Source: a virus
Length of the DNA stretch: 22,431 nucleotides
Direction: 5' to 3' (one strand)
Virus record (IMG/VR): IMGVR_UViG_3300036835_000059
Coordinates: 1-22,431 of that record
Shown piece after piece: positions 4,973 to 9,257 of this stretch (positions within the stretch are counted from its first letter, which is position 1; every line of letters starts with the position of its first letter). Below the pieces are notes generated by a model. It had not been told where the DNA came from, ran no database searches, and saw only the letters and a program-made list of their open reading frames with translations. Both the position numbers and the translations under genes were made by a program.

Positions 4973-5001
4973 TTGACTCCGAATTCCCGGCGCGGCTATG
5001 G
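4973..5001 (+). promoter_or_regulatory. Probable sigma-70-type promoter of the HNH/terminase/structural operon
   Basis: The -35 element TTGACT (4973-4978, preceded by GC, giving the alphaproteobacterial CTTGAC form) is followed after exactly 17 bases by CTATGG (4996-5001), a fair -10. It sits in the only sizeable intergenic space and faces the HNH, packaging and head/tail genes. The -35 overlaps GACTC (4975-4979), a GANTC site of the CcrM cell-cycle methylase of Alphaproteobacteria, so methylation- or GcrA-dependent control is conceivable. If the promoter is real, the ATG at 4998 falls inside the -10, and translation must begin downstream. Confidence 0.5.
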
Positions 5002-5045
5002 GAAAAACCATCATTCGCGAGTTGCGACTGATACTTCCCGAAAAC

Positions 5046-5375
5046 ATGCCAGAACGCGCGCCGCTGCATCGAGCGGCTGGCTACCTTTCGAGCGCCGATC
5101 GCCGCCGTCTTTACGACGCCGCGCGCCCGTCGCCGTCCCGGATTTACGGGCATCAGTGGCGCCGATTGCGCCTCATGTATTTGCGCGCGCACCCGATTTG
5201 TGAGTGTGAGGATCACTGCGGCCGCCCCGCGACCGTCGTCGATCACCGCACGCCGCACAACGGCGATCACGCGCTGATGTACGCTTGGGACAATCTCCAG
5301 GCGATGACGAAACCCTGTCACGACAAGAAAACCGCGGCGCGCGACGGCGGTTTCGGCAACCCGGTTCGCCGATGA
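5046..5375 (+). CDS. HNH endonuclease
   Basis: Read from ATG 5046 the product has 109 residues and begins MPERAPLHR, as in other phage HNH proteins of this kind. The frame also offers ATG 4998, but that start would overlap the proposed -10. Neither start has a clear ribosome-binding site. Key features are YGHQWRRLRLMYLRAHPICE, then CGRPATVVDHRTPHNGD (Asp66-His67 of the HNH motif), WDNLQAMTKPCHDKKTA (the Asn and final His of the motif) and a C-terminal basic tail. Small HNH enzymes lying just before terminase genes are known in HK97-type phages to assist packaging by nicking or cutting DNA together with the terminase. Confidence 0.88.
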   Translation: MPERAPLHRAAGYLSSADRRRLYDAARPSPSRIYGHQWRRLRLMYLRAHPICECEDHCGRPATVVDHRTPHNGDHALMYAWDNLQAMTKPCHDKKTAARDGGFGNPVRR

Positions 5376-5569: not shown

Positions 5570-5688
5570 CACCCGATCCGAAACCGCAAGACGACCCCGG
5601 CGAGGGCGATCACGAACGCCGCGAACCGGGCGAAGACGAGCACGAGGACGATGGCGAGAGCCAGGTCGACGACAAAGAAACCGCCTGA
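5563..5688 (+). CDS. Very acidic 41-residue mini-protein
   Basis: ATG 5563 is preceded by one of the strongest ribosome-binding sites in the window (aaggaggg at 5552-5559). The product has 41 residues, of which 17 are Asp or Glu, with almost no hydrophobic core, so it is probably disordered. It overlaps the upstream Cys-rich gene by 7 bases and the downstream ParB gene by 38. The acidic composition recalls DNA-mimic inhibitors, but proteins this short can also be simple translational-coupling leaders for the next gene. The call of a true gene rests mainly on the ribosome-binding site. Confidence 0.5.
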   Translation: MLTPDPKPQDDPGEGDHERREPGEDEHEDDGESQVDDKETA

Positions 5689-6382
5689 GCCATTACCGTG
5701 GCCGGCTGATCATGTTGAGCGGCGGCCGGTATCGTCATTGATGCCGTCCGCCCGCAACGCGCGTGTGCACAGTGCGCGACAGGTCAGCACCATTGCTGCA
5801 TCGATCAAGGAATTCGGTTGGACCGTTCCAGTGTTGATCGATGAGGAAGGCGAGATCATCGCGGGCGCAGGGCGTGTGTTAGCGGCGCCGACGTTGGGCC
5901 TTGTGGAAGTACCGGTGATTGTCGCGCGCGGCTGGACCGACGAACAGAAGCGCGCCTATCGCCTCGCCGACAATCAGATCGCGCTCGGTTCCACGTGGAA
6001 CAAAGCTCTTCTGCAGGTCGAGCTCAGCGATTTGCGGAAGCATTTCGACCTGGAGCTGATGGGCTTTGCCGCGAAAGACGCCGCCACGTCGAACGGCTTG
6101 GCCAGCGAGGAATTGCCGCCGGCGCTGCAACTGGAACCGCCGCGCGAATATGCGCTGATCATGTGCGCGAGCCCGGAGGAATGGGAACGGCTCAAGGTCG
6201 CCTTAAAACTGACACCAGTCCGCCGCGGCGGCTACAAACAGGGCTCCCAATTCGACGATGTCGGCACGCAACGCATCGTGCACGCCGCGGACGTGCTCGC
6301 CATGATCGAGCCCCCCATTCCGCGGCTCGTGGCTCCCGCCGATCCGAACTATCAACCCGATGTTGATCGCGATCCCGTCTAA
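5651..6382 (+). CDS. ParB-domain protein (second), partner of the glycosyltransferase
   Basis: The 243-residue protein is read from ATG 5651, inside the preceding mini-gene. Residues about 22-110 form a typical phage ParB-like nuclease domain: RPVSSLMPSARNARVHS, TIAASIKEFGWTVPVLIDEE, IIAGAGRVLAA (71-79) and DNQIAL. The usual GHGR motif is GAGR here, which may reduce nuclease activity. The C-terminal part (about 160-220, YALIMCASPEEWERLKVAL...) is a second domain shared with phage ParB proteins that are often fused or adjacent to DNA methyltransferases. Such ParB proteins help base-modifying enzymes act on phage DNA; the adjacent glycosyltransferase makes that plausible here. Confidence 0.82.
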   Translation: MARARSTTKKPPEPLPWPADHVERRPVSSLMPSARNARVHSARQVSTIAASIKEFGWTVPVLIDEEGEIIAGAGRVLAAPTLGLVEVPVIVARGWTDEQKRAYRLADNQIALGSTWNKALLQVELSDLRKHFDLELMGFAAKDAATSNGLASEELPPALQLEPPREYALIMCASPEEWERLKVALKLTPVRRGGYKQGSQFDDVGTQRIVHAADVLAMIEPPIPRLVAPADPNYQPDVDRDPV

Positions 6383-7076
6383 GGGCCGCGCCGGCAAGGT
6401 GCGCTCGCTCAAGGTGCTGCCATCGGCGAGCGTGTTCGTGCCGCACCTCGAGGCCGAGGCTTATCTCGCCACCGGGTGCCGCAATGTCGTCGCCGTGCCG
6501 GACACCGTGCGCGGGATCACGGCGACCCGAAACTGGATTCTGCGGAACACCGACCACCGCCGGCTGGTGATGATCGACGACGACGTCGTCACCGCCGGCT
6601 ATGTGAAGCTCCACAGTCACGCGGCGCAGACGATCCCGCTCAGTGAAGAAGTGTGGCTCGGTGAATTTGCGAAGATTTTCGACGTCACCGAATGCCTGGG
6701 TTATCGCATCTGGGGCGTCTCGACCGACGGGGCGACCCGGAGCGTGTATCCCTATCACCCGTTCCGCTTCCGCTCTTACGTGACCGCCTCGTGTATGGGG
6801 ATCGTCAACGACGGCCGGACCACGTTTGACGAGAGTTTCGCGGTTAAGGAGGATTACGAGCTTTGCCTCCGCTGCATCGTGCAAGACGGCGGCGTCGTCA
6901 CCGCTGAATACCTCTATTGGCGCAACAGCCATTGGCACGACGAGGGCGGGTGCAAGGACTACCGCACCCAGGCGGTCGAGGACGATTGCATCAAACGCCT
7001 GCGCCGATCCTATCCCGGCCTCGTGCGCGTCGCGCAGCGGGCCAACTCGGAGTGGGCGATCCAGATCGCGGCATGA
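6360..7076 (+). CDS. TET-associated-type glycosyltransferase (TAGT)
   Basis: The 238-residue protein starts at ATG 6360, overlapping the ParB gene by 23 bases. It matches the TAGT family: IPSKGRAGKV at the N-terminus, ITATRNWIL, MIDDDV with the DxD-like metal site (Asp73-Asp75), FDESFAVKEDYEL (Lys163-Glu167) and a late GGCKDYR segment. TAGT enzymes have a GT-A-like fold and are predicted to transfer sugars onto hydroxylated bases in phage DNA, next to TET/JBP dioxygenases or other base-modifying enzymes. No dioxygenase is present here; the base-modifying partner would have to lie outside the window or be supplied by the host. Glycosylation of a protein or another substrate remains an alternative. 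Confidence 0.78.
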   Translation: MLIAIPSKGRAGKVRSLKVLPSASVFVPHLEAEAYLATGCRNVVAVPDTVRGITATRNWILRNTDHRRLVMIDDDVVTAGYVKLHSHAAQTIPLSEEVWLGEFAKIFDVTECLGYRIWGVSTDGATRSVYPYHPFRFRSYVTASCMGIVNDGRTTFDESFAVKEDYELCLRCIVQDGGVVTAEYLYWRNSHWHDEGGCKDYRTQAVEDDCIKRLRRSYPGLVRVAQRANSEWAIQIAA

Positions 7077-7585
7077 GAACGTCCGGGCAGCGTCCAGTGC
7101 CGACCGAATTGCACCGGATGCGCGGGACCTATCGCGCCGATCGCCACGGTGCGGCGCCTATCGCGCTCGGCGACCTCGTCAAACCGCCGTCGCACTTCAA
7201 CACCGAACAGAGGAAGTCGTGGCGCTACGCGATCGAGCACGCGCCGGCGCATTTGCTGCGGATGATCGACCGCGGAACGCTCGCGGTGTGGGTCGAGGCC
7301 GAGACTCGGCATTTCGAGGCGACCGCGGCGCAAAACGAGCTCAATAAGCAAACCGGGGTGAAGTACCTCATCCCCGGACCGATGGGCGGGCTCGTCGCCT
7401 CGCCGCTCGTCGACGTCATCGACAAAGCCGGAAAAACGATGATGCGCGCCGCGCAGGATTTGGGGTTCTCGCCGGCGACGCGGACCCGGATCGTCGTCGC
7501 GCCGGATCAGGAAGCGGCCAACGACGACGGCACGCCGGACACAAACCCCTGGTCGGTGCTGAGATTGGTCAAGGGCGGTGACTGA
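7073..7585 (+). CDS. terS: Terminase small subunit, P27 family
   Basis: ATG 7073 overlaps the glycosyltransferase stop by ATGA; the frame is open upstream but only as shadow. The 170-residue product matches the P27 TerS pattern: RMRGTYRADRHG, FNTEQRKSWRYAIEHAPAHL, a long central helix, PLVDVIDKAGKTMMRAAQDL and the characteristic LGFSPATRTRI near the C-terminus. TerS recognises the packaging start of phage DNA and activates TerL. Its position directly before TerL, with an 8-base overlap, is the standard arrangement. Confidence 0.88.
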   Translation: MRTSGQRPVPTELHRMRGTYRADRHGAAPIALGDLVKPPSHFNTEQRKSWRYAIEHAPAHLLRMIDRGTLAVWVEAETRHFEATAAQNELNKQTGVKYLIPGPMGGLVASPLVDVIDKAGKTMMRAAQDLGFSPATRTRIVVAPDQEAANDDGTPDTNPWSVLRLVKGGD

Positions 7586-9257
7586 TTTCTCGCGCCTCGT
7601 GCCGGACGCCGTGATCTACGCCGAGAAGGTCGAGGGTGGGGCGATCGTCGCATCGCATCATGCGAAGGCGGCGTGCGTCCGGTTCCTCGACGACCTGGAC
7701 GTCGCCCGCCGCGGCGATGGTCAGTGGGAATTCCGCGAGGACCTTGCCGCGCGCGCCATGCTGTTTGCGGGCACGATGCCCAACATCAAAGGCCCGATGG
7801 CCGGCCGCTCGATCGAGCTTATGGATTGGCAGAAATTCGCCTATGCCAACATCTTCGGGTGGGTCGAACGCGGGACCGAGACGCGCCGTTTCCGCCAGGG
7901 CGTGATCTTTGTTCCGAAGGGCAACGGGAAGACGACCGTTAGCGCACCCCTCGCGCTTTACCTCACCTTTGGCGAGGGCGAGGGCGGCGCCGAGGGCTAC
8001 GCGGCCGCGGTGTCGCGCGATCAGGCGCGCATCTTGTTCGACACCGCGCAGAACATGGCGCGCCGTTCGACCGATCTGCGCCGCGAATGGGGCGTCGGCG
8101 TGCTGACAAACTCGATCTTTCAGGAAGCGACCGCGTCGAAGTTCATTCCGATATCGAGTGACGCGAAGGCACTCGACGGGCTCAACGTTCATTGCGCGGT
8201 GTGCGACGAGATCGGATCGCACCGCACCAGCGAGGTCTACGATGCGCTTCTTACGGCAACCGGCAAGCGGCGTCAGCCCTTCCTTCTTAGCATCTCGACC
8301 GCCACCGGCAACGCCGCGGGGATCGGGAAGCAGCTCTGGGACTACCTCATGCGGGTTCTGTCGACGGGTCCGCGGGACGATCGTGTTTTTGGCATCATCT
8401 ACTCGATCGACGATGACGACGATCCGTGGGAGGAGGCGACCTGGATAAAGGCCAATCCGGGGTGGGGCGTCTCGGTTCAGCCGGACGCGATCCGCGCGAT
8501 CATGAAGCAAGCGCGCAACAACCCCGCACAGGAAGCCGCGGCAAAAACCCGTCATTTGAACGTGTGGGTTGGCGCCGACGAGTCGCTGTTCTCGACCTCC
8601 GCCTGGGGGGCCTGCGCGAAGCCGCTGCGGATCGATGATTACCGCGGCCGCGAGTGTCATCTCGCGTTCGACGGCGCGAGCAAAACCGACCTCGCCGCGC
8701 TTGCCGCCGTGTTCCCCGAGGGCGACGGACGCTACACCGCCTTTTGCCGCTGCTACCTTAACGAGGCCGCGGTGCTGGAGGCGCGCAACCCGTCCTATCC
8801 GGGGTGGGCGAACGATGGCCATCTCGTGATCACGCCCGGAAACGAGACGGACTACGCGACGATCGAGGCCGACATTCTCGAATGGTCGCGCATGTTGCGC
8901 GTGCGGTCCTTTGCCTACGATCCCTGGGGCTCGACCTACCTCGCGCAACGCCTCGACGAAGCGCGCGTGCCGATCGTCGAATTCCGCTCGACGACGCAAA
9001 ACTTCTCGGAGCCGACCAAGGAGCTCGACGCCGCCATGCGGTCGGGCCGGATCAGCCACGACGGCAACGGACCCTTGACCTGGTGCATCGGCAACGTCGT
9101 CGGCCATTACGACGCGCGCGGCAACGTCTATCCGCGGCGGCCGCGTCCGGAGAACAAGATCGACGCCGCGATCGCGCTGATCATGGGCATCGCGCGGTGC
9201 ATGACCGACGAGGGGCCCAGCGTCTACACACCGACGCGCGGGATCATCTCGATTTGA
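7578..9257 (+). CDS. terL: Terminase large subunit, Terminase_1 family
   Basis: The 559-residue motor/nuclease starts at GTG 7578. The ATPase half contains FVPKGNGKTT, the Walker A motif (residues 112-119, Lys118), and VHCAVCDE, the Walker B motif (Asp210, Glu211), followed by a coupling-type LSISTATGN segment. The RNase H-like nuclease half has LAFDGAS (Asp365), YDPWG (Asp448) and ENKIDAAIAL (Asp529), the three expected acidic residues. Length and order agree with HK97-type TerL. The enzyme pumps DNA through the portal into the prohead and cuts the concatemer. The stop overlaps the portal start by TTGA. Confidence 0.96.
   Translation: MTDFSRLVPDAVIYAEKVEGGAIVASHHAKAACVRFLDDLDVARRGDGQWEFREDLAARAMLFAGTMPNIKGPMAGRSIELMDWQKFAYANIFGWVERGTETRRFRQGVIFVPKGNGKTTVSAPLALYLTFGEGEGGAEGYAAAVSRDQARILFDTAQNMARRSTDLRREWGVGVLTNSIFQEATASKFIPISSDAKALDGLNVHCAVCDEIGSHRTSEVYDALLTATGKRRQPFLLSISTATGNAAGIGKQLWDYLMRVLSTGPRDDRVFGIIYSIDDDDDPWEEATWIKANPGWGVSVQPDAIRAIMKQARNNPAQEAAAKTRHLNVWVGADESLFSTSAWGACAKPLRIDDYRGRECHLAFDGASKTDLAALAAVFPEGDGRYTAFCRCYLNEAAVLEARNPSYPGWANDGHLVITPGNETDYATIEADILEWSRMLRVRSFAYDPWGSTYLAQRLDEARVPIVEFRSTTQNFSEPTKELDAAMRSGRISHDGNGPLTWCIGNVVGHYDARGNVYPRRPRPENKIDAAIALIMGIARCMTDEGPSVYTPTRGIISI

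Follow-up and report, generated by a model that had tools for sequence, protein, structure and literature searches.

We propose that a ParB-domain gene and the glycosyltransferase (GT) gene that it overlaps probably form a single phage DNA-modification module, in which the GT would glycosylate the phage's own double-stranded DNA with the ParB-domain protein as its constant partner. The pair lies in a 22,431-base contig without end repeats, a fragment that makes up the entire virus record and that we call the window. Its open reading frames (ORFs) include HK97-type head genes and a contractile Mu-like tail (portal, protease, capsid, sheath, tube and DNA circularisation N), and the genes around the pair are arranged as follows:

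4998 to 5375, plus strand: HNH endonuclease upstream of the ParB–GT pair (phrog_144, E=4.8e-21)
5651 to 6382, plus strand: ParB-domain partner, 243 aa (phrog_620, E=1.1e-45; Noc/ParB CTPase fold match)
6360 to 6382, plus strand: 23-base overlap of the ParB and GT genes, read directly in the sequence
6360 to 7076, plus strand: GT-A glycosyltransferase of the TAGT/bgaGT family, 238 aa (PF20691, E=1.9e-12; phrog_842, E=1.2e-20)
7073 to 7585, plus strand: terS, small terminase subunit (Terminase_4 PF05119, E=2e-9; phrog_83, E=1.1e-19)
7578 to 9257, plus strand: terL, large terminase subunit (PF20441, E=3.4e-40; phrog_9, E=2.5e-153)

A conserved pair of genes

An earlier note on this DNA had described a ParB gene running by 23 bases into a GT gene directly before terS, and had picked out the motifs IPSKGRAG, MIDDDV and KEDYEL; the ORFs lie exactly so, and all three motifs are located in the GT. 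It was also right that the window holds no TET/JBP or nucleotide-modifying enzyme, in that no other ORF of this fragment record matches a known base-modification family. What it missed is that the module includes the ParB as well. The 23-base overlap is probably a sign of translational coupling, and the start of terS overlaps the GT stop as ATGA (7073-7076). The HNH endonuclease gene belongs to the packaging neighbourhood and falls outside the ParB–GT module. Elsewhere in the window, positions 1389-2363 in the early region encode a second ParB-like protein (phrog_1033, E=3e-16), of a different ParB family from that at 5651-6382, and positions 916-1392 encode a protein with a GapR-like DNA-binding domain (PF10073, E=1.1e-10).

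To the window we added 63 loci from a viral-contig scan with the GT, nine from bacterial genomes, and two from annotated phages, the complete Streptococcus phage Javan291 and Microbacterium phage Ariadne, for a set of 75 GT loci. A ParB gene lies directly upstream of the GT in 68 of them; six are cut by the contig end and one (L064) truly lacks ParB, so that the pair is present in 68 of the 69 loci having enough upstream DNA, including 9/9 of the bacterial genome contigs. The overlap is exactly 23 bases in 35 of the 75 loci and 4 bases in 14. Counting the named hosts of these relatives, which are phages or proviruses, the pair occurs in at least six bacterial phyla, namely Planctomycetota, Bacillota (Phascolarctobacterium, Streptococcus), Verrucomicrobiota, Lentisphaerota, Bacteroidota and Actinomycetota (Microbacterium). 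Chance pairing of the two genes is excluded.

The terS and terL genes that follow the pair are dissimilar among loci, and four loci (L005, L006, L019 and L052) have their terminase genes on the other strand, away from the pair. Because the pair precedes unrelated terminases, its position was not inherited from one packaging module, and we rejected hitch-hiking with a single terminase type on the same grounds and because the pair sometimes lies apart from the terminases altogether. Among isolated phages, the GT is present in 56 Microbacterium phage records, most of them annotated with ParB and UDP-glucose dehydrogenase genes adjoining. In Ariadne (L066) the pair maps to the right arm, next to a sigma factor, where positions 44719-47792 form one run of sigma factor, ParB, GT, nucleotide-sugar dehydrogenase-like and AAA-annotated genes; the UDP-glucose/GDP-mannose dehydrogenase-like gene after the GT encodes 259 aa, which is short, and may be degenerate. 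The ParB-less locus (L064 3080-3865, record G022:5557-6186) has a TAGT-type GT 1.7 kb from a thymidylate-synthase-type gene, an arrangement like the canonical hydroxymethyl-base pathway.

The glycosyltransferase and its two-domain partner

The GT matches the Pfam TAGT profile PF20691 from position 2 to 205 of 205 with 48 bits (cut-off 27.5), and its best PHROG, 842, is that of the beta-glucosyl-HMC-alpha-glucosyltransferases; it is 24% identical to Klebsiella T4-like enzymes. By sequence it belongs to the TAGT enzymes, yet its genomic context, in the records searched, is not TET-associated. A sequence search for a structurally solved relative found none. An AlphaFold2 model built from 36 window and locus sequences has a mean pLDDT of 89, and its leading PDB matches, KdsB excepted, are GT-A glycosyltransferases (WrtF, RmlT, TarP and TarS, TM ~0.5-0.6). 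Among viral proteins it matches TAGT and bgaGT enzymes best, with TM ~0.8 as against ~0.57 for WrtF; these include the bgaGT protein of PKO111 (TM 0.80), and the viral list also contains TAGT proteins of Ralstonia phage RSL1. A mere polysaccharide GT2 enzyme is a less likely reading, the viral TAGT/bgaGT models being much the closer matches. Across the 36 sequences P6, S7, R10, R57, D73-D75, E164-D165 and G196-G197 are invariant, and the predicted GT-A fold carries a metal-binding DxD (D73-D75) and a catalytic ED (E164-D165).

The ParB protein comprises a ParB/Srx-type NTP-binding N-domain (~aa 20-145) and a C-terminal domain (~aa 158-217). The predicted fold of the N-domain matches Noc/ParB CTPases and, more weakly, sulfiredoxin and a serine kinase, and its NTP-pocket residues are kept (G72 in 36/36 sequences, R75 in 33/36, N108 in 35/36). 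PHROGs identify it clearly; against Pfam ParB_N it scores 22.3 bits, under the cut-off of 26.3, and against TIGR00180 27.3 bits, where the cut-off is 58.45. Family matches are confined to the N-domain, no match to a central helix-turn-helix (HTH) DNA-binding domain was found, and the PDB ParB/Noc profile matches stop near position 120 of 210. No ParA-type family appears among the 29 ORFs of the window, itself a fragment. A canonical partition ParB was ruled out on three grounds, the missing HTH-domain match, the family score below cut-off and the lack of a ParA in the window; from its modelled fold, the protein is best described as a ParB/Srx-domain protein.

The C-terminal domain, a small beta-alpha-beta-alpha unit in a lower-confidence model, is specific to GT-linked ParBs. 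Its profile is found in 57 GT loci and in none of the best 80 listed relatives of the N-domain, even at E<=1, and a separate scan of viral contigs with the C-domain alone returned 40 loci, some on contigs common to the GT scan, with the GT downstream in 40/40. Distances between C-domains follow those between GTs (Spearman 0.90) far more closely than do distances between N-domains (0.39), and L056 and L059, which are 76% identical in the GT and 89% in the C-domain, are only 34% identical in the N-domain. Physical linkage could account for part of this correlation, the C-domain adjoining the GT gene, so the C-domain may, rather than must, bind the GT.

The N-domain is, by contrast with this GT-specific C-domain, an interchangeable part common to amino-methyltransferase, Mom, DpdA-like and class-2 TAGT systems. 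We read gene by gene the best 80 among the matches listed, picked by similarity to the window's N-domain. In 58 of these 80 the protein runs on into a DPPY/SPPY/DPPW amino-methyltransferase motif; all 6 of the fusions scanned match N6_N4_Mtase, as do L084 and L131, fusions that lack the motif. Some of these methyltransferase (MTase) fusions (L077, L079, L080, L081 and L082) stand directly before terS homologues, the spot held here by the ParB–GT pair. Others among the listed relatives are short ParBs whose next gene, overlapping or close by, encodes Mom, TAGT, radical SAM and then TAGT, a histidine phosphatase-cytidylyltransferase or a DpdA-like protein, and a few, such as L086-L088 and L096, have no identified partner. 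Short ParBs with a TAGT occur in L089 and L129. In a quick tree of 80 N-domains, a sample biased to window-like sequences, the window's clade (7 members, GT-linked) is nested in a starred clade whose members are linked to MTase, Mom or TAGT, and it is separate from the main GT-linked clade; the starred branches require the GT label to change at least twice, and nine changes are needed over the whole set.

Several of these neighbouring systems are worth recording in their own right. A Mom-family gene is overlapped by a ParB gene in L068 (2870-4100) and L126 (961-2161). In L072 (3989-7307) ParB, a radical SAM-SPASM protein and a class-2 TAGT stand in a row before terS, a cassette for which radical-chemistry hypermodification is possible, and L073 has the same order of short ParB, radical SAM and TAGT. 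In L071 (3959-5717) the gene that ParB overlaps encodes a histidine phosphatase fused to a cytidylyltransferase, and the same record also has a class-2 TAGT (G027:8770-9438); such a system may produce an activated sugar or polyol for itself. Finally, in L100 (559-1955), L119 (3983-5376) and L122 (966-2359) the ParB N-domain gene overlaps a 287-aa gene. That of L100 matches queuine tRNA-ribosyltransferase and is DpdA-like (PHROG 887, E=3.5e-31), and the other two have a gene of the same length and an N-domain of the same clade, which suggests a small phage ParB–DpdA-type pair.

The acceptor base and rival readings

The earlier note had left a choice between a new modification route and a partner enzyme lying elsewhere, and the second of these options is now weakened. 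Tet_JBP was found in none of 23 records (22 of them ParB–GT) and in none of 30 further ones, in a search that had no positive control above cut-off and among records most of which may be fragments; for Ariadne it consisted of an hmmscan of its proteins only. The 2OG-FeII_Oxy_6 family was found in 0/19 records, likewise with no positive control. C5-methyltransferases were found in 0/25 records, in a search whose positive controls matched, and the thymidylate-synthase type (PF00303) above cut-off in 1/25, the ParB-less L064, with one sub-cut-off match among the ParB–GT records. None of the 65 non-structural proteins of the complete Ariadne and Javan291 matches a known base-modification family. 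A TET/JBP partner elsewhere in the genome is accordingly less likely, since neither the longer relatives nor the complete phages have one by this uncontrolled search, nor do they have a recognisable C5-methyltransferase or hydroxymethylase. Amino-MTases (PF01555) were rejected as makers of the acceptor, being present in merely 3/25 records and broken by stops in two of the three. Given these negative searches, the phage itself does not account for the usual hydroxylated acceptor, which may instead be supplied by the host or by an enzyme that goes unrecognised; alternatively, the GT may act on an ordinary base.

It is possible, though rather unlikely, that the pair takes the last of these routes and glycosylates an ordinary unhydroxylated base directly, perhaps at the exocyclic amine of adenine or cytosine, with ParB as a general NTP-driven loader plugged onto various DNA-modifying enzymes. 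Such chemistry would resemble that of the amino-methyltransferases with which this ParB N-domain is also associated, a domain which stands directly upstream of the GT here and, in its relatives, upstream of or fused to MTase, Mom, DpdA-like and TAGT proteins. Mom acts on adenine. The canonical two-step route, in which an unrecognised or off-fragment phage enzyme makes 5hmC or 5hmU, the GT glycosylates it as in T-even and TET systems, and ParB assists, would fit the GT's match to the T-even bgaGT family, the thymidylate-synthase-type gene near the ParB-less L064 and the fragmentary state of the window record. We consider it unlikely: Ariadne, Javan291 and ~20 more ParB–GT records show none of the enzymes that it calls for beyond that one sub-cut-off match, in searches of which two had no positive control, and the proteins of the two complete phages speak against it as well.

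The other readings take DNA out of the reaction. If the GT acted instead on a virion protein, on the host surface (in serotype conversion or superinfection exclusion) or on a host defence protein, its adjacency to ParB would be a coincidence of the packaging neighbourhood; WrtF, RmlT, TarP and TarS, its best PDB folds, do act on polysaccharide or wall teichoic acid, and the next gene after the GT in Microbacterium phages resembles that for UDP-glucose dehydrogenase. Yet the pairing is reciprocal and specific and is kept both beside unrelated terminases and apart from terS, the ParB N-domain otherwise occurs mostly with DNA-base modifiers, and the viral TAGT/bgaGT folds match far better than WrtF, all of which makes a target other than DNA quite improbable. 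A purely regulatory pair, in which the GT would modify either the terminase or a ParB-like protein serving in partition or packaging, would explain why the genes so often lie directly before terS with a translational overlap, but we regard it as highly improbable in view of the absence of a ParA-like family among the other window ORFs, the restriction of the ParB matches to the N-domain, the four loci whose terminase genes are on the other strand and the position of Ariadne's pair next to a sigma factor.

Proposed mechanism and relation to known systems

Since the N-domain's relatives are mostly fused or adjacent to DNA-base modifiers, DNA is the likeliest target of the GT and ParB its likely NTP-binding partner. 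We envision that, after replication and shortly before packaging, the ParB N-domain would load onto or move along the DNA using NTP while its C-terminal domain holds the GT, a GT-A enzyme that would take the sugar off a nucleotide-sugar and attach it to a base in the double-stranded DNA of the phage itself. The suggestion in the earlier note that this phage may carry sugar-modified DNA therefore stands insofar as DNA glycosylation is the best-supported reading, given the TAGT/bgaGT sequence and predicted fold and the company that the ParB family keeps; its second part, that the sugar protects the DNA from restriction, we only infer.

If DNA glycosylation by the pair is correct, it would represent a widespread phage cassette that is not coupled to a recognised pathway for hydroxylated bases. 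The frequently overlooked phage gene for a "ParB-like nuclease" would then be a module common to several DNA-modification chemistries, and the neighbourhood of this ParB N-domain would be the place in which to look for modification enzymes not yet known. Direct glycosylation, if true, would add a one-step route to sugar-modified DNA. A direct test is possible, as dozens of sequenced Microbacterium phage isolates that grow on standard laboratory hosts carry the pair, among them Quhwah, Ariadne and Fireman (hosts M. foliorum NRRL B-24224 and M. paraoxydans NWU1).

We found no literature that joins ParB with TAGT or a glycosyltransferase in phage DNA modification, and the known systems each share a part of this one. 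With the TAGT enzymes (PF20691) the window's GT has in common a score above the profile cut-off, a GT-A fold and conserved DDD and ED motifs, but no TET/JBP was found with GTs of its type, whose constant partner is instead a ParB-domain protein that has a C-terminal domain dedicated to them. The T-even bgaGT enzymes (PHROG 842) are close in best PHROG, in sequence identity to the Klebsiella T4-like enzymes and in fold to the PKO111 protein, whereas T-even phages make 5hmC through a dCMP hydroxymethylase, and none was found with the ParB–GT pair. Phage fusions of ParB to DNA amino-methyltransferases (PHROG 498) have an N-domain 50-65% identical to that of the window and, in some phages, the same place before terS; they differ in having the fused methyltransferase as effector and in lacking the GT-type C-domain. 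The CmoX carboxymethylcytosine system likewise has a ParBc gene adjoining a phage DNA-base modifier, ParBc genes being found both near CmoX and fused to DNA MTases with a precise function that the paper gives as unknown, but it relies on Cx-SAM methyltransferase chemistry, and the paper makes no mention of glycosyltransferases (PMC12783734). In DpdA–DpdB, DpdB is a ParB-like ATPase that works with DpdA (PMC12839542), and a ParB-like NTPase is thus again joined to a separate DNA-base-modifying enzyme; the window's effector differs in being a glycosyltransferase, not a transglycosylase, and no deazaguanine genes were seen. By analogy, the ParB–GT module would work like other ParB-partnered DNA-modification modules, such as DpdA–DpdB and the ParB–MTase fusions.
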